Part shown: piece by piece, positions 56,204-63,312 of the stretch
Position numbering within the stretch: position 1 is the stretch's first letter
Layout of the letters: each line of letters opens with the position of its first letter
Source of the DNA: Alphaproteobacteria bacterium
GTDB taxonomy: Bacteria; Pseudomonadota; Alphaproteobacteria; Micropepsales; Micropepsaceae
Reading direction: 5' to 3'
DNA: 64,000 bases
NCBI GenBank assembly: GCA_947467345.1
Contig: CANIHD010000019.1
Span: forward strand, 1-64,000
Program-made: the position numbers and the translations under genes
The notes under the pieces: model-generated
What the model was told of the DNA's origin: nothing
The model's input: the letters and a program-made list of their open reading frames with translations, nothing else
Databases searched by the model: none

Positions 56204-56962
56204 TTACGTGGGCGGGGCGAGGCCGTAGCTCGCCACCAGCGAACCGGCAACCAGACGCCAGCCGTCGACGAGCACGAAAAAGATCAGTTTGAACGGTAGG
56301 GAAATCACCACCGGCGGCAACATCATCATGCCCATCGACATCAAGATGGATGAGATCGCCATGTCGATAATCAGGAACGGCACGAACAAAAGAAAACCGA
56401 TTTCGAACGCGCGTTTCAATTCCGAAATCATGAAAGCCGGTATCACGGCGCGTAAAGGCGCCGCTTCTGGGGCTTGTGGAATTTCCACCTGTGCCATCGA
56501 AACGAACAATCCCAGATCTTCGTTGCGCGTATGCGCCAGCATAAAATTGCGCATCGGCGTCGAAGCGCGCTCCAAGGCCTGTTCGGTCGTGATCTGCTCC
56601 GCGATCAGTGGCGCTATGGCCATTTCATAGACAGCATTGAATGTCGGCGTCATCACAAAGAGCGTGAGGAACAGCGCCAGCGAAACGATCACGCTGTTGG
56701 GCGGGCTCGATTGCGTGCCGATGGCGGAACGCAATAGCGACAGAACGACAACAATGCGCGTGAAGCAGGTCGTCATCATCAAAATCGACGGTGCCAGGCT
56801 CAGAATCGTGATGAGACCGAGGATCTGCATGATCCGTTCGGTCATCGCGCCGCCGCCGGTCAGGTCCACCGTGATCGGCGGCATAGCAGGCACGGCTTGC
56901 GCCAATGCAACGCTGGGCAGAGCGACAAGAATAAGTGTGGCGAGAGCGATGTGCTTGTTCAT
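56204..56962 (-). CDS. fliP: Flagellar export protein FliP
   Basis: Core component of the flagellar type III export gate with FliQ and FliR. The 252-residue protein has a cleavable signal peptide (residues 1-21, LILVALPSVALA), then four membrane helices around the ITILSLAPSILMMTTCFTRIVVVLSLLR and FLLFVPFLIIDMAISSILMSMGMMMLPP signatures. ATG 56962 is the usual MNK start and overlaps the fliO stop (ATGA); the frame from 57079 adds only fliO-shadow residues. Confidence 0.96.
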   Translation of the reverse strand: MNKHIALATLILVALPSVALAQAVPAMPPITVDLTGGGAMTERIMQILGLITILSLAPSILMMTTCFTRIVVVLSLLRSAIGTQSSPPNSVIVSLALFLTLFVMTPTFNAVYEMAIAPLIAEQITTEQALERASTPMRNFMLAHTRNEDLGLFVSMAQVEIPQAPEAAPLRAVIPAFMISELKRAFEIGFLLFVPFLIIDMAISSILMSMGMMMLPPVVISLPFKLIFFVLVDGWRLVAGSLVASYGLAPPT

Positions 56963-57270
56963 ATCGGGCGTCCTGAAGCGGCCGCCAATGCAGCGGAAAA
57001 ATCTTCGGGCGCGGCGCCGCTGCCAACCAAGGTTGCGCTTTGCGGACCGAGTACGATGACATGTTCTTTGGTGTCGCAACGTAGGAGAACGAGGCGATGC
57101 TTGGGCCCTAAAGCGATGGTTTCAACGACGGAAAGGCGGCGCGCTTTGCGGCCGGGAAGACCCGGAAGGCCCGCAACGCCGAATTTCCGCATGGCCAAAA
57201 CCGCACCGCCGACCAACGCCAGCACAAGGGCAAGCGCGCCGAAATAGCGGACAAAATCGACGACATCCAT
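56959..57270 (-). CDS. fliO: Flagellar biosynthesis protein FliO
   Basis: Assembly chaperone of the FliP ring. The 103-residue protein has one membrane helix (about residues 8-28, YFGALALVLALVGGAVLAM) and a cytoplasmic domain with RRLSVVETIALGPKHRLVLLRCDTKEHVIVLG, the FliO signature. ATG 57270 gives the natural MDVVDFVRYFG start. It is coupled to fliP and diverges from flgB across a 190-bp region with CtrA boxes. Confidence 0.92.
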   Translation of the reverse strand: MDVVDFVRYFGALALVLALVGGAVLAMRKFGVAGLPGLPGRKARRLSVVETIALGPKHRLVLLRCDTKEHVIVLGPQSATLVGSGAAPEDFSAALAAASGRPI

Positions 57271-57345
57271 GGAAATGCACGCTCCCGCCCGGCAAAATCT
57301 GCAGGCGTCAATCACGCCATGCCGGGTGATCCTCGCGGTTCATGC

Positions 57346-57360
57346 TTAATCGCAGGTTAA
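57346..57360. promoter_or_regulatory. CtrA box 1 in the flagellar divergent promoter
   Basis: TTAA-TCGCAGG-TTAA is a perfect TTAA-N7-TTAA full site for CtrA, about 76 bp upstream of the fliO ATG and 100 bp upstream of flgB. It lies 8 bp before a sigma-54-like element. Confidence 0.6.
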
Positions 57361-57367
57361 AGCACTC

Positions 57368-57382
57368 GGCAAAATTTTCGCA
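57368..57382 (+). promoter_or_regulatory. Possible sigma-54-type promoter upstream of flgB
   Basis: GGCAAAATTTTCGCA keeps the invariant GG and GC dinucleotides at 12-bp spacing and matches GGCA and TnGCA of the -24/-12 consensus (TGGCAC-N5-TTGCA). The T before GG is absent. It lies between two CtrA boxes and would start transcription near 57393, about 67 bp before the flgB ATG. Confidence 0.35.
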
Positions 57383-57397
57383 TCCGATCGGGTTTGG

Positions 57398-57412
57398 TTA
57401 AGTCGCGATTAA
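57398..57412. promoter_or_regulatory. CtrA box 2 in the flagellar divergent promoter
   Basis: TTAA-GTCGCGA-TTAA is a second perfect CtrA full site, 48 bp upstream of the flgB ATG and about 128 bp from fliO. Two full sites in a 70-bp stretch of flagellar promoter are unlikely by chance at this GC content. Confidence 0.6.
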
Positions 57413-57459
57413 GCTTACCGGCGCGATGCTGCGGGCGCATCCAAGAGGTCGGACCCGCC

Positions 57460-57849
57460 ATGCAGACCGATTCCATACCGCTCTTCTCGTTGATCACGCA
57501 GCGCATGACATGGTTGTCCGCGCGTCAGGCCGTTCTCTCCGACAATGTCGCCAATGCCGATACGCCGAAATTTGTGGTCCGCGATGTGAAGCCCATGGAT
57601 TTCGGAAATCTGCTGGCGCGTGAGACGGGGCTCAACACCACGAACACACATCACATCAAAGCGGGATTGAATTCGAGCAATCCGGTCGAAGCGATGGAAG
57701 TGCGCACGCCCGGCGGCGCGCCCACCGCAGTGTCGCTGGAGCAGCAGATGATCAAGCTGTCAGACACGCAGCTGCAATATCAGACGGCGACCAATCTCTA
57801 TCAGAAAGCCGTCGGCATGTTTCGTACCGCGCTCAGCGGCCGCTTCTAG
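57460..57849 (+). CDS. flgB: Flagellar basal-body rod protein FlgB
   Basis: Proximal rod component. The 129-residue protein has the rod motif LSARQAVLSDNVANADTPKFVVRDVKPMDF and the C-terminal TQLQYQTATNLYQKAVGMFRTAL helix. ATG 57460 is chosen over 57394. It begins the rightward operon flgB-flgC-fliE-orf56-fliQ-fliR-flhB. Confidence 0.94.
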   Translation: MQTDSIPLFSLITQRMTWLSARQAVLSDNVANADTPKFVVRDVKPMDFGNLLARETGLNTTNTHHIKAGLNSSNPVEAMEVRTPGGAPTAVSLEQQMIKLSDTQLQYQTATNLYQKAVGMFRTALSGRF

Positions 57850-57864
57850 GAGGAGTCCTAAACC

Positions 57865-58275
57865 ATGGATTTCACCACGTCACTTTATGTCGCCGCCGCG
57901 GGCCTTCGTGCCCAATCCGGCCGCATGCGCATCATCGCGGAAAATCTGGCGAATGCGGATTCGACATCGCAGACCGCGAATGGCGAGCCCTATCGGCGGA
58001 AGGTCGCAACCATCAATTCCGAATTCGACCGCGAACTCGGCTCGAATGTTGTGACACTTGGCCGCCCAGTCGCGGATCAATCCGAATTCCGTCTGCAATA
58101 CGATCCGGGAAATCCGCGCGCCGATGCCGCCGGTTACGTCCGCATGTCCAACGTCAACACGCTGGTGGAAATGATGGACATGCGTGAAGCGCAACGCGCT
58201 TACGAATCCAATCTTCAGGTGATGGACGCCGCACGCACCATGCTGGCGCGTACCATCGATCTTTTGCGGCGTTAG
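57865..58275 (+). CDS. flgC: Flagellar basal-body rod protein FlgC
   Basis: Proximal rod component working with FlgB. The 136-residue protein has the N-terminal SLYVAAAGLRAQSGRMRIIAENLANADST rod motif and the C-terminal MMDMREAQRAYESNLQVMDAARTMLARTIDLLRR. An AGGAGG ribosome-binding site lies upstream of ATG 57865, 15 bp after flgB. Confidence 0.96.
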   Translation: MDFTTSLYVAAAGLRAQSGRMRIIAENLANADSTSQTANGEPYRRKVATINSEFDRELGSNVVTLGRPVADQSEFRLQYDPGNPRADAAGYVRMSNVNTLVEMMDMREAQRAYESNLQVMDAARTMLARTIDLLRR

Positions 58276-58304: not shown

Positions 58305-58637
58305 ATGGCTGCAAGTCCTATAAATGCCGCCGCTGCCTATCAAGCCGTCGCACGCCTCGGCACTGGCGGTGCCGGCGGTGCTGAATCCGCCCTGCCCAAT
58401 CTCGGCACCGGAGCGACCGGCGGCGACTTCAGTTCCTTTTTAAACGACGCAGTGAAGAGCACCGTTGACACAATGCGTTCCGGTGAAGCCGCCGCCGCGC
58501 AAGGCGCAGCCGGCAAAGGCGACATTGTGCAGGTGGTGAACGCCGTCACGGCCGCCGAACTCACGTTGGAGACTGTAGTTGCTGTGCGCGACAAAGTCAT
58601 CAGCGCCTATCAAGACATCATGCGCATGCCAATCTAA
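58305..58637 (+). CDS. fliE: Flagellar hook-basal body protein FliE
   Basis: Adapter between the MS ring and rod. The 110-residue protein has the FliE C-terminal signature VQVVNAVTAAELTLETVVAVRDKVISAYQDIMRMPI; the N-terminus is Ala/Gly-rich and variable, as usual. ATG 58305 with GGAGAA upstream. It lies between flgC and the small orf56. Confidence 0.95.
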   Translation: MAASPINAAAAYQAVARLGTGGAGGAESALPNLGTGATGGDFSSFLNDAVKSTVDTMRSGEAAAAQGAAGKGDIVQVVNAVTAAELTLETVVAVRDKVISAYQDIMRMPI

Positions 58638-58685: not shown

Positions 58686-58856
58686 ATGGAACCGCTTAGC
58701 GAAGAGCTCTTTATTCCGGACGCCGATATTCGGTTACCCGGCACGCGGCTCGGCCGCTTTCTTGAACGCCTAGCGCAAGAGCAAAGCCCACGCCCTGATG
58801 TCGCGCTGGGGTTCGAAGGCAAAAAATCCATTCGCGTGCGCGGAGGTAAATCCTGA
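58686..58856 (+). CDS. 56-residue small ORF between fliE and fliQ
   Basis: An unrecognised 56-codon gene starting MEPLSEELFIPDADIRLPGT and ending SIRVRGGKS. It is charged, has no membrane segment and shows the codon use of its neighbours. A GAGGGGAA lies 10 bp upstream of ATG 58686. Its stop overlaps the fliQ ATG by one base (TGATG), so fliQ translation is probably coupled to it. These features support a real gene and not a spacer. A function in export-gate assembly or in setting fliQ expression is possible but only inferred. Confidence 0.65.
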   Translation: MEPLSEELFIPDADIRLPGTRLGRFLERLAQEQSPRPDVALGFEGKKSIRVRGGKS

Positions 58857-59119
58857 TGGACGGCGCTGAAACGCTCGACTTCGCGCGCGAGTCGATCATT
58901 CTTCTCATTCAAATCTGCGCGCCGCCAATGATTACCGCGCTGGTCGTCGGCGTGGCTATCGGCCTCTTGCAGGCTTTGACACAGGTTCAGGAAATGACAC
59001 TGGTCTTCGTGCCGAAGATCTTGGCCATTTTCGTCGTGCTGCTGATCGCGCTGCCCTTCGCTGGCGAAGCGATGGCGGCCTATATGGAAAACGTCGCGGC
59101 GCGCATCGCAGGTCCATGA
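58856..59119 (+). CDS. fliQ: Flagellar export protein FliQ
   Basis: Export-gate subunit. The 87-residue protein has two membrane helices with ESIILLIQICAPPMITALVVGVAIGLLQALTQVQEMTLVFVPKILAIF, the full FliQ signature. It overlaps the small ORF upstream by one base and fliR downstream by four (ATGA). Confidence 0.96.
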   Translation: MDGAETLDFARESIILLIQICAPPMITALVVGVAIGLLQALTQVQEMTLVFVPKILAIFVVLLIALPFAGEAMAAYMENVAARIAGP

Positions 59120-59880
59120 CTTTTATTCTCCCCGCTCTTGAAGGCACGGTCTTCGCGTTCACGCTTACCTTCGCGCGGGCCGGGGCCATGATCATGCTGC
59201 TGCCGGTCATCGGCGATATCGGCGTCCCGGCGCGCGTGCGCCTGGCATTCGCCCTTGCCGTGTCGGCGGCGCTGGCGCCGACCGTTGCACATTTTTATCC
59301 GGCCACCGCGCCCGCGCCCGTGGCGCTGGCGTTTCTGGTGATGCGCGAAACAATTGTCGGGATCATGGTAGGCACCATGGCACGCCTCATCATGAGCGCG
59401 CTCGATGTTGCCGGCACGTTGATCGCCAATCAGACGGGCCTTGCCTTCGCGCAAACCTTCAACCCGTCCTTGAGCGCCTCGACAACTGTGGTCAGCACGT
59501 TTCTTTCGCTGCTTGGTGCCATGCTCGTGTTTGAATCAAACCTCCATCATCTCGCCATCGGCGCCATTCGCGGCTCTTACGATCTCATGCCGCCCGACGG
59601 CGCGCTGATGACCGCCGACATGGTGGAGCTGGCGGTGCGCATGGTTTCAGGCTCCTTCGCTTTAGGACTGCAACTCGCGGCGCCCTTCGTGCTGTTGGGA
59701 TTTCTGATCTATGTCGCGCTCGGCCTCATCTCGCGCCTGATGCCGCAAATGCAGGCTTTCTTCCTGGCGATGCCGATCAACATTCTGACCGGCTTCGTGC
59801 TGCTCAATCTGTTTCTCGGCGTCATGACGACGACGTTTCTGGAATTCTTTGCCACCAACATGGCAATTTTCAATCCGTAA
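59116..59880 (+). CDS. fliR: Flagellar export protein FliR
   Basis: Export-gate subunit. The 254-residue protein has about six membrane helices, with FARAGAMIMLLPVIGDIGVPARVRLAFAL and GTLIANQTGLAFAQTFNPSLSASTTVVSTFLSLLGAML, and ends NMAIFNP. Coupled to fliQ by ATGA; flhB follows after 6 bp. Confidence 0.95.
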   Translation: MTFILPALEGTVFAFTLTFARAGAMIMLLPVIGDIGVPARVRLAFALAVSAALAPTVAHFYPATAPAPVALAFLVMRETIVGIMVGTMARLIMSALDVAGTLIANQTGLAFAQTFNPSLSASTTVVSTFLSLLGAMLVFESNLHHLAIGAIRGSYDLMPPDGALMTADMVELAVRMVSGSFALGLQLAAPFVLLGFLIYVALGLISRLMPQMQAFFLAMPINILTGFVLLNLFLGVMTTTFLEFFATNMAIFNP

Positions 59881-59886
59881 GGGCCC

Positions 59887-60969
59887 ATGGCTGAAGATCG
59901 CGACGACTCACAACGCACTGAAGAACCTACTCAGCGACGGCTAGACGAAGCGCGCAAAAAAGGCGACGTCGTCAAAAGCCAGGACCTGTCCACGTTCATC
60001 ATGCTCTCCGGCAGTACGCTCGCCATTCTGATCGGCCGCGGTAGCGCCGCGAAATCCTTCCTCGCCCAATTCCTCGTCTATCTGCAATCGCCCGAATCCT
60101 TCGTGCTCGATGCCGGGTCCGCGAATCTGCTTTTGGGCCGCGTCTCCTACGGGCTTTTGATGGTGGTAGGGCCCGTTATCGGATTCATTTCCCTCGCAGC
60201 CGTTGCCGGCCATGTGGTGCAATCGATGCCCACGATCTCGACCGAGAAAATTCGCCCGGATCTTTCGAAATTGTCGCTCCTCAAAGGGGCGAAGCGCCTT
60301 TTCGGGCTCGATGCGCTCGTCAATCTGATCAAGGGCATTCTGAAAATTGCGGCGGTCACCATCGCGATTGCGCTGGCCATCTGGCCGGACCGCGCCCGCC
60401 TGGCCACCTCGCTTTCCATGGATCCGATGTCGCTGATCGGATTGCTGATGGCGCTCACCTTGAAGGTGTTGCTGGCCTCGCTCATCGTTCTCGCCGCCAT
60501 CGCGGCGTTCGATTATTTCTACCAGCGCACCCGCTTCATGCAGCGCCACCGCATGAGCCGGCAGGAACTGAAAGACGAAATGAAGCAGAGCGAAGACGAT
60601 CCGGTCGTCAAAGCCCGCATTCGCCAGCTTCGTTACGAGCGTTTGCGCCGGCGCATGATGGCCGCGGTGCCGGAAGCCACCGTGATTATCACCAACCCGA
60701 CTCACTATGCCGTGGCGTTGAAATACGAGTCGGGCAAGACGGGCGCGCCCATTTGCGTCGCCAAGGGCGTCGACGGGCTCGCGCTCAAGATTCGTGAAAT
60801 CGCCACCGAGCACGATGTGCCCATCGTCGAAAACCCGCCTCTGGCCCGCGCGCTCTATGCCAGCGTGGAACTTGACGACGAAATCAGCGCCGAGCATTAC
60901 AAGGCGGTGGCGCAGGTGATCGGCTACGTCATGCGGTTGGCGAATCAGCGGGCCTTCTGGCGCAACTGA
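59887..60969 (+). CDS. flhB: Flagellar export switch protein FlhB
   Basis: Switches export substrate from rod/hook to filament proteins by self-cleavage. The 360-residue protein has a basic N-tail (SQRTEEPTQRRLDEARKKGDVVKSQDLST), four membrane helices and a cytoplasmic domain with the autocleavage motif NPTH at residues 270-273, followed by YAVALKYESGKTGAPICVAKG. ATG 59887, 6 bp after fliR. It is the last gene before cckA. Confidence 0.96.
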   Translation: MAEDRDDSQRTEEPTQRRLDEARKKGDVVKSQDLSTFIMLSGSTLAILIGRGSAAKSFLAQFLVYLQSPESFVLDAGSANLLLGRVSYGLLMVVGPVIGFISLAAVAGHVVQSMPTISTEKIRPDLSKLSLLKGAKRLFGLDALVNLIKGILKIAAVTIAIALAIWPDRARLATSLSMDPMSLIGLLMALTLKVLLASLIVLAAIAAFDYFYQRTRFMQRHRMSRQELKDEMKQSEDDPVVKARIRQLRYERLRRRMMAAVPEATVIITNPTHYAVALKYESGKTGAPICVAKGVDGLALKIREIATEHDVPIVENPPLARALYASVELDDEISAEHYKAVAQVIGYVMRLANQRAFWRN

Positions 60970-61039: not shown

Positions 61040-61073
61040 CGAGATTCCGCCGTATGGAATGCGGCGAATCTCG
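61040..61073. other. Imperfect inverted repeat upstream of cckA
   Basis: CGAGATTCCGC pairs with GCGGCGAATCTCG around a GTATGGAAT-containing loop with a one-base bulge. It lies 70 bp after the flhB stop and about 50 bp before the cckA ATG. There is no T-tract, so it may be a weak transcript end, an mRNA structure or an operator. Confidence 0.35.
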
Positions 61074-61122
61074 CTATGATCAATTATCAAAGCACCCGAA
61101 TCAGCCGCCAAGATCGGCCGCT

Positions 61123-63312
61123 ATGAGCGAGCTTTCCCGCTATGCGAAGGTGAGTAACACACCCGAATTTGGCGCCGTCGTGGCCTTGATTGCGCGCACG
61201 TTTTCGCCTGACCAACCGGGCGGCGTGAGCCGTTTGGCCGCGTTCGGATTCTTCATGATGGCGCTCGCCGGCGCTGTGCTGGTGCTGTTGTCGCCGGGCT
61301 ATGCGCAATGGGCCGGCGTGCTGCTGCTGCTGGCGATTGCCGCCTCCGGCATCGTGCTTCTGTTCGCCGCCTGGCCCCGCCGCCGCGCCGGGTCGGAAGC
61401 AGCCCAGCGCGCCGCCGCCGTTGCCGCCGCGTCTAACATCGCTTGGTCGGTGACTTCGCGCGACGGCACTGTGCTGGATTGCAACACCGCCTATCGCTTC
61501 CTTTCGGGTCTCAGCGAAGGCGAACCGCCGGCCCCGCCGCAGCTTGCTTTCCCTGGCGAAGGCCCGGCCGCGGCTTTGTACCGCCTGTCGCGGGCGGCCA
61601 TCGAAGGCCGCGCCCGGGAGGAAAATTTCGAAACCGAAAGCGGCCAGCGCCTAACGGCGGCCGTCCGTCCACTGAACAATGGCGAGGCGGCCTGGTGGTT
61701 CACGCCAAGGCTCCCCGAAGCCACGCCGCCCAAAGCCATGGTCAAAGGCACGGAGCCTGAGAAGCGCACCCCCTCGGCGCTGATCCGCTTCACCGAATTT
61801 TTCCGCAACGCGCCCATGGGCGTCGCTATCGTATTCGGTAACGGCAAAGTGGCGGAAGCCAACGATCCCTTCTCCGAGTTCTTCACCCTCGGCGCTTCGG
61901 CGGGGGGCGCGAAGCTGGGCGATCTGGTGCGCGCCAATGACCGTGCCGCCGCCATCGACCGCATTTCGCGCGCCGCCAATGGCGAAATCGGCCACGAGCC
62001 GGTGGAGCTGCATTCCGTTGCCGGCGAGCGCAGCGCGCAAATGTTCGCCAGCCCCTTCATGGCGTCGCCGGAAGGCGACCCGCGCGCCATTCTCTATCTC
62101 GTCGATACGTCGGAGCAGAAGCGCCTCGAAACGCAATTCGCGCAAAGCCAGAAGATGCAGGCCATCGGCCAGCTGGCGGGCGGCGTGGCGCATGATTTCA
62201 ACAATTTGCTCCAAGCCATCATGGGCAATTGCGATCTCTTGCTCATGCGCCATGCGGCGGGCGATCCCTCTTTCGCCGAAATCAACGAGGTGCGGCAGAA
62301 CTCGGTGCGCGCGGCCGCCCTTGTGCGCCAGCTTCTCGCCTTCTCGCGCCAGCAAACATTGATGCCCAAAGTTCTGGCGCTCAACGACACGTTGTCGGAA
62401 TTGTCGCTGCTGCTGCGCCGGCTTCTGGGCGAACGCATCACACTGAAATTCGAGGACGCGAAAAATCTTTGGCCGGTGAAAGCCGACGAAAGCCAGATTT
62501 CCAACGCGGTGATGAATCTCGCGGTGAACGCGCGTGACGCCATGCCGCCCGATGGCGGCGAAGTCATCATCCGCACGTCAAACCTGCTGCTCACCTCGCC
62601 GCGTCCCATCGGCACCGGCGCCATGCCACCCGGCGGCTATGTGCAGATCGAAGTCATCGACACCGGCGCCGGAATCCCCAAAGAAATTCTGGTCAAGATT
62701 TTCGAACCCTTCTTCACCACCAAGCCGGTGGGGCAGGGCACCGGCCTTGGCCTTTCCACCGTCTACGGAATCGTCAAACAAACCGGCGGTTTCGTCGATG
62801 TCGAAAGCGAAGTCGGCAAGGGATCGAAATTCCGCATCTATCTGCCGCGCCACATTGCCGTCGAAGGCGCTGTGCAGGAGCGCGCCGACGACAGCGAGAA
62901 ACAGGCGCCGCGCGACATCACGGGGCAGGACACGATCCTCCTTGTCGAAGACGAAGACGCGGTGCGGAGTTTCGCCGCCCGCGCGCTCAAAATGCGCGGC
63001 TACACCGTGCTCGATGCCAATGGCGGCGAAACCGCGCTCGAGATCGTCAAGAGCCATGTAGGCCCTATCCACCTTCTCGTCACCGACGTCGTGATGCCCA
63101 ATATGGACGGGCCCACGCTGGTGAAAGAAGCGCGCAAATTGCGTCCCGAAATGCGCATCATCTTCATGTCAGGCTATGCCGAAGAAGCCTTCCGCCGCAG
63201 CGAGGAAAAGGCTGAGCAGCACCATTTCTTGCCCAAGCCATTCGGCCTCAAGCAATTGGTGGCGAAGGTGAAGGACGTGCTCGACGAACCGCCCGCGGGA
63301 CGGGCGGCGTAG
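61123..63312 (+). CDS. cckA: CckA-type hybrid histidine kinase
   Basis: Cell-cycle kinase that in alphaproteobacteria phosphorylates ChpT and through it CtrA and CpdR. The 729-residue protein has two N-terminal membrane helices (about 40-60 and 64-86), two PAS-like regions (about 110-205 and 230-330), a HisKA domain with phospho-acceptor His357 in [19 protein letters not shown], an ATPase domain with DTGAGIPKE and [18 protein letters not shown], and a C-terminal receiver (about 605-725) with Asp655 in [17 protein letters not shown] 61123 is the MSELSRYAK start. It lies 153 bp after flhB, beside a flagellar operon with CtrA boxes. Confidence 0.94.

Follow-up and report, generated by a model that had tools for sequence, protein, structure and literature searches.

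The 64-kb stretch of DNA analysed here (the window) carries two flagellar operons that diverge from a common intergenic region of 189 bp, and this layout raises the question of which regulators act between them and whether both operons answer to the same signal. The intergenic region separates the fliO ATG at 57270, read leftwards, from the flgB ATG at 57460, read rightwards. The answer that we regard as probable, as judged from the sequence and its relatives, is a divergent pair of CtrA-activated promoters, with an FlbD-type element between the two CtrA boxes instead of a sigma-54 promoter.

The leftward operon, on the minus strand, consists of fliO (56959..57270; TIGR03500, 45.9 bits, below the cut-off of 55.25) and fliP (56204..56965; NCBIfam TIGR01103, 285.6 bits, above cut-off). 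The fliO start is most likely the ATG at 57270, since alignments of relatives begin at that methionine, and the mechanically called open reading frame begins at 57315. On the plus strand, a possible ribosome binding site, AAGAGG, can be read directly at 57443..57448 and is followed by flgB (57460..57849), where FlgB models give at best 87.9 bits, under their cut-offs, and the name is based on homology and synteny. The genes behind it score above their cut-offs: flgC (57865..58275; TIGR01395, 145 bits), fliE (58305..58637; TIGR00205, 74.8 bits), fliQ (58856..59119; TIGR01402, 90.9 bits), fliR (59116..59880; TIGR01400, 193.9 bits), and flhB (59887..60969; TIGR00328, 390.1 bits). After flhB, at the far end of the run, comes a hybrid histidine kinase gene, cckA (61054..63312, plus strand; NF046020, 668 bits, E 1.8e-200, under the cut-off of 1000), with a true start possibly further inside this frame. 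These profile scores, together with alignments to relatives, agree with the initial annotation in its gene names for both operons and in the place of cckA, and its coordinates were all correct.

A separate CtrA promoter for fliQ or for cckA was considered and rejected, as no TTAA occurs in the gap between fliE and fliQ and only a lone TTAA (61021) lies upstream of cckA. The fliE-fliQ gap is unusually long and is filled by a 56-codon open reading frame (58686-58856; MEPLSEELF...) with a stop that overlaps the fliQ start and with no relative in any locus fetched. A genome of the same genus, G002, has only about 12 bp between fliE and fliQ.

The two perfect CtrA boxes described earlier are indeed present: box 1, TTAATCGCAGGTTAA, at 57346-57360 on the minus strand and facing fliO, and box 2, TTAAGTCGCGATTAA, at 57398-57412 on the plus strand and facing flgB, both exact matches to TTAA-N7-TTAA. 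In outward reading, the boxes are TTAACCTGCGATTAAGC (box 1) and TTAAGTCGCGATTAAGC (box 2), so that each box seems to serve the operon that it faces. The pattern occurs three times in the window, against 0.12 expected, none of 100 shuffles reaching three, and 14 times in the whole 2.49-Mb assembly; at these frequencies, two boxes inside 67 bp are not a chance event. Genome-wide, TTAA-N7-TTAA is not in excess (14 places, versus 37 for the backward-read control pattern), and the case for the boxes therefore rests on position, pairing, and conservation.

The position of the boxes fits that of activator sites. A full CtrA box in Caulobacter has its 5' nucleotide near -35, for example at -39, according to the available text of PMC4287350. 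By this box-to-start rule, transcription is predicted to start near 57436 for flgB, box 2 beginning 62 nt upstream of the flgB ATG, and near 57322 for fliO. In four loci of genus g5 of the same family (L012-L015), 38-39 nt separate the fliO start codon from the 5' end of box 1; this equals the Caulobacter distance from full box to start site given in that text (PMC4287350), and box 1 thus fits activation of fliO. The same spacing would put the start site of these g5 loci at the fliO ATG itself, that is, a leaderless fliO.

Conservation was followed in 111 sequences, comprising 80 loci of named genomes (best FliP identity to the window, 68%), 30 other loci, and the window. Divergent fliO and flgB were found in 80 of the 111, in 72 cases within 1 kb of each other; eight pairs more than 1 kb apart and 31 sequences lacking a divergent pair in the stretch examined were left out, and removal of a duplicate of the window gave 71 distinct regions, each of at most 1 kb. 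At least one perfect CtrA box occurs in 54 of these 71 regions and at least two in 20, when about 0.48 boxes in total would be expected over the 72 regions from dinucleotide-matched random sequences. Many of the genomes are related, and the box counts are therefore not independent events. The sampled regions span Hyphomicrobiales, Caulobacterales, Hyphomonadaceae, and the window's own family. The 17 regions with no perfect box comprise six Brevundimonas/Caulobacteraceae loci (L063, L083, L089, L093, L097, and L105) and more distant groups, and degenerate boxes are visible in some of them. Within the window's family, the flgB-side box is perfect in all 21 regions; the second, fliO-side box is likewise found in all 21, 12 of these copies being perfect and nine deviating in one letter. 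Where both are perfect, box starts lie 44-56 bp apart in 11 of the 12 regions and 71 bp apart in the remaining one (L018). Absence of the sites from related flagellar promoters had been named as grounds for discarding the proposal, and the boxes are instead kept across orders. As far as sequence comparison can tell, the CtrA-boxed divergent fliO/flgB layout is of old origin and has been retained widely among alphaproteobacteria.

In another genus, g6 (L032, L034, L035, and L037), TTAA motifs form chains at steps of 10-11 bp before fliO, adjoining a second full box. The chain is TTAA-N6-TTAA-N7-TTAA-N6-TTAA in L032, L034, and L037 and is one step shorter in L035.

CtrA itself is encoded in the window's genome (NF045991, 418 bits, cut-off 350). 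ChpT adjoins it (225 bits, cut-off 240), with a full CtrA box upstream of chpT, and further boxes occur close to mraZ and dapA. From the sites, their orientation, and their conservation, all directly observed, we infer that CtrA binds and activates at both boxes. It had been suggested that the two operons might respond to CtrA either jointly or oppositely. Conservation, the outward boxes, and the presence of CtrA and ChpT give good support to joint control of the two operons, while the sequence does not settle the direction of the response. The two sites of the window, and a distance from box to flgB greater than in C. crescentus, make joint activation the more plausible choice.

The arrangement reported for C. 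crescentus is nevertheless the closest known system and supplies the main alternative, namely that one region mediates both activation of fliO and repression of flgB by CtrA. According to the accessible part of PMC6180460, citing Boyd and Gober 2001, flgBp and fliOp of C. crescentus, the same two divergent operons in the same place, are 144 bp apart and share one full CtrA site, from which fliOp is activated and flgBp repressed, a report that speaks against simple joint activation. The window differs in having two outward boxes and not a single shared one, and the 62 nt from the start of box 2 to the flgB ATG can accommodate a short leader after a start site located 35-40 nt behind the box, which is the place of an activator; by comparison, the six named Caulobacter-group loci that have a perfect box show a distance of just 38-40 nt (L064, L069, L074, L081, L094, and L112). 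Opposite control is thus unlikely in the window. A divergent, CtrA-controlled fliO/flgB promoter is in itself already known from C. crescentus, and the window represents a conserved and largely known kind of promoter; in C. segnis (L069), cckA also lies downstream of flgB, as it does here.

A pair of divergent flagellar promoters with two independent CtrA sites also has a precedent, flgB2p-fliI2p of Rhodobacter sphaeroides, where each promoter is described as having its own CtrA site and both are activated (PMC6180460, in its available portion). This system differs from the window in the fliI partner, in the 6-bp spacers of its boxes, and in the absence of FlbD.

A further alternative is that the region is decaying, the flagellum being lost and the sites being relics. 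The window's own assembly (G000), which is 96% complete, yielded no FlbD, fliF, flhA, or flagellin despite intact fliX and fliOP/flgB operons, and several genomes of the same genus have no FliP match. Against decay, both boxes are letter-perfect, all genes of the operons are open, and FliX is encoded. Moreover, fliF, flbD, and flhA (the last identified by eye) form one block in congener G002, so that a single assembly gap might account for three of these four genes; the missing genes thus reflect possibly a gap, or otherwise real loss. Decay of the region appears quite unlikely. FlbD is otherwise common: it was present in 47 of the 48 named genomes that were surveyed, the sole exception (L134) also lacking a CtrA box, and among 37 genomes of the family, the window's included, 22 pass the FlbD cut-off. 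The possibility that FlbD is one of the three strong enhancer-binding proteins of the window's genome was rejected. These are NtrC, NtrX, and L003, and the last is not called FlbD because it reaches 344 of 750 bits, far under the FlbD cut-off.

The element between the boxes, GGCAAAATTTTCGCA at 57368-57382, had been taken for a sigma-54-like promoter which CtrA might block or assist. It does have the letters GG-N10-GC at the appropriate spacing, it agrees in six positions with the Caulobacter consensus GGCNC-N4-CTTGC (nine specified letters) as given in the available text of PMC4287350, and RpoN is encoded in the window's genome. However, its match to the consensus TGGCACG-N4-TTGC, eight of 12 letters, is the best score of the region and is at chance level (p = 0.27 against shuffles), and none of the 21 family regions has a sigma-54 site better than p = 0.25. 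In L010, the nearest relative, GGCAAAATTTT is retained and the -12 GC is lost. Likely true sigma-54 sites elsewhere match 10-11 of 12 letters (C. segnis flagellin, C. segnis fliX-flgI, and L144 of G002), although the flagellin region of G002 and the flgI-fliX region of G016 score only nine and five of 12; at the C. segnis flagellin, a site of 10 of 12 letters occurs together with a pair of palindromes. The consensus score relative to shuffles and the conservation pattern led to rejection of a sigma-54 promoter as the main reading, and a -24/-12 flgB promoter at GGCAAAATTTTCGCA, blocked or assisted by CtrA, is very improbable, the match being weak and unconserved. An FlbD site is the better explanation for an element that resembles sigma-54 in the raw sequence (GGCAAAATTTTCGC-like).

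What recurs at the flgB promoter in other lineages is a palindrome, GGCA-N5-TGCC. Among the 31 named-genome regions with a perfect box, 21 have it (at least eight of 10 letters, at most 22 nt behind the flgB box), at a spacing of 9 nt in 19 and of 8 nt in two; shuffled tails would give 0.44 such regions. The ten regions with no palindrome are the six Caulobacter-group loci, two from Hyphomonadaceae, L085, and L096 (seven of 10 letters). In the window's family, the palindrome follows the flgB box in nine of 21 regions, at a spacing of 6 or 7 and against 0.45 expected. The window is not one of these nine, the copy behind its flgB box (57419..57433, plus strand), at the place used in other lineages, matching six of 10 letters and scoring -13.6 bits; it is no credible strong site.

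A matrix trained outside the family selects two other places in the window, with no strand assigned to either. Palindrome A, CGGCAAAATCTGCAG (57290..57304, 16.1 bits), lies in the fliO leader, and palindrome B, CGGCAAAATTTTCGC (57367..57381, 13.0 bits), is the element previously read as sigma-54-like. The top score of 16.1 bits was reached by one of 300 shuffles, and both palindromes are imperfect, with degenerate right halves.

The same palindrome is a regular component of the fliF promoters examined, where it was found behind a CtrA box having at most two mismatches in 21 of 21 cases and at a spacing of 9 nt in 18 of them, including C. segnis. It also occurs upstream of flagellins (C. segnis and G002), between fliX and flgI (C. 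segnis and G016), and before flgI and flhA in a Bradyrhizobium; genes at these flagellin, fliX-flgI, and flgI/flhA places were named by eye and chosen from the hit list. The inspected hits had been chosen for AT-rich centres or for proximity to known flagellar genes, and the flagellar share among them is therefore not unbiased. The strict pattern SGGCANNNTNTGCC shows no genome-wide enrichment over its backward control in four of five genomes, and no flagellar locus was among the inspected strict hits of the window's genome. Behind the other 12 CtrA boxes of that genome (11 fetched places and 19439), no palindrome of at least eight of 10 letters was found, except at L049, where an eight-letter match lies at a spacing of 3.

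FlbD of C. crescentus represses fliF after early-gene expression by binding ftr4, upstream of that gene, as stated in the accessible text of PMC3930126. The palindrome lies behind the CtrA box of fliF, which is the position of ftr4, as well as at flagellin and between fliX and flgI, and FlbD is nearly universal in the surveyed genomes; for these reasons GGCA-N5-TGCC is most likely a putative FlbD (ftr) site, assigned by its promoter places and not by published ftr letters. A start-site map of Methylosinus sporium from 2025 places a motif without an assigned regulator, Motif 3, at the flgB, fliF, motA, flgF, and flgE promoters (PMC12403871, in the part available). This motif may be the same palindrome, with flgB and fliF as the promoters in common, a likeness drawn from the promoter list of that source and not from letters.

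These elements could be combined as follows. Phosphorylated CtrA would bind the two full boxes independently, each directed outward and occupying roughly the -35 position of the promoter it serves, and would activate fliOP leftwards and flgBC-fliE-fliQR-flhB, possibly with cckA, rightwards at the same stage of the cell cycle. Once early flagellar parts were built, FlbD, controlled by FliX, would bind both palindromes, the one flanked by the boxes and the one in the fliO leader, and, by the precedent of fliF and ftr4, would turn these early promoters down. Since cckA ends the rightward gene run, CtrA might also feed back on the gene of its own kinase, provided that cckA is co-transcribed with the flgB run. 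On the same proviso, the link from CtrA to cckA would be old, because cckA was found behind flgB in 19 of the 32 loci long enough to show it.

The fliF/ftr4 promoter of C. crescentus (PMC3930126, as far as that text describes it) is likewise a CtrA-activated early promoter with an FlbD site for later repression. At C. segnis fliF, the palindrome begins 9 nt behind the CtrA box, as at flgB in many other groups. The window departs from this design, since the better of its palindromes occupy the inter-box segment and the fliO leader and not the place behind the flgB box. A broader scheme is offered here tentatively, with more doubt than conviction. It holds that fliF and flgB share a rigid, order-spanning operator, composed of a CtrA box, 9 nt, and an FlbD palindrome, through which the early operons might answer first to CtrA and then to assembly via FliX and FlbD. 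The FlbD site would have moved to a place between the outward boxes in the window's genus and in g5; in the window, together with the fliO-leader site, it could silence both operons, possibly by bridging around the fliO promoter. A literature search confined mostly to open-access journals returned no description of the composite of CtrA box, 9 nt, and palindrome at flgB. The flgB operon in many alphaproteobacterial groups appears to carry the CtrA-plus-FlbD composite of fliF at equal spacing, whereas in Caulobacter, the model group for the flagellar hierarchy, the loci examined lack the FlbD part at flgB, none of the six perfect-box loci having the palindrome behind the flgB box.

Two further arrangements of the palindrome were observed in other genomes of the set. 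In G002 (L143, 1771-1830), three to four FlbD-type palindromes form a tight array upstream of flagellin. In G016 (L142, 1160-1951), a palindrome overlaps the start region of a gene separate from the main fliX; its protein has a FliX-like start and, as judged by eye, is a possible FliX paralogue.
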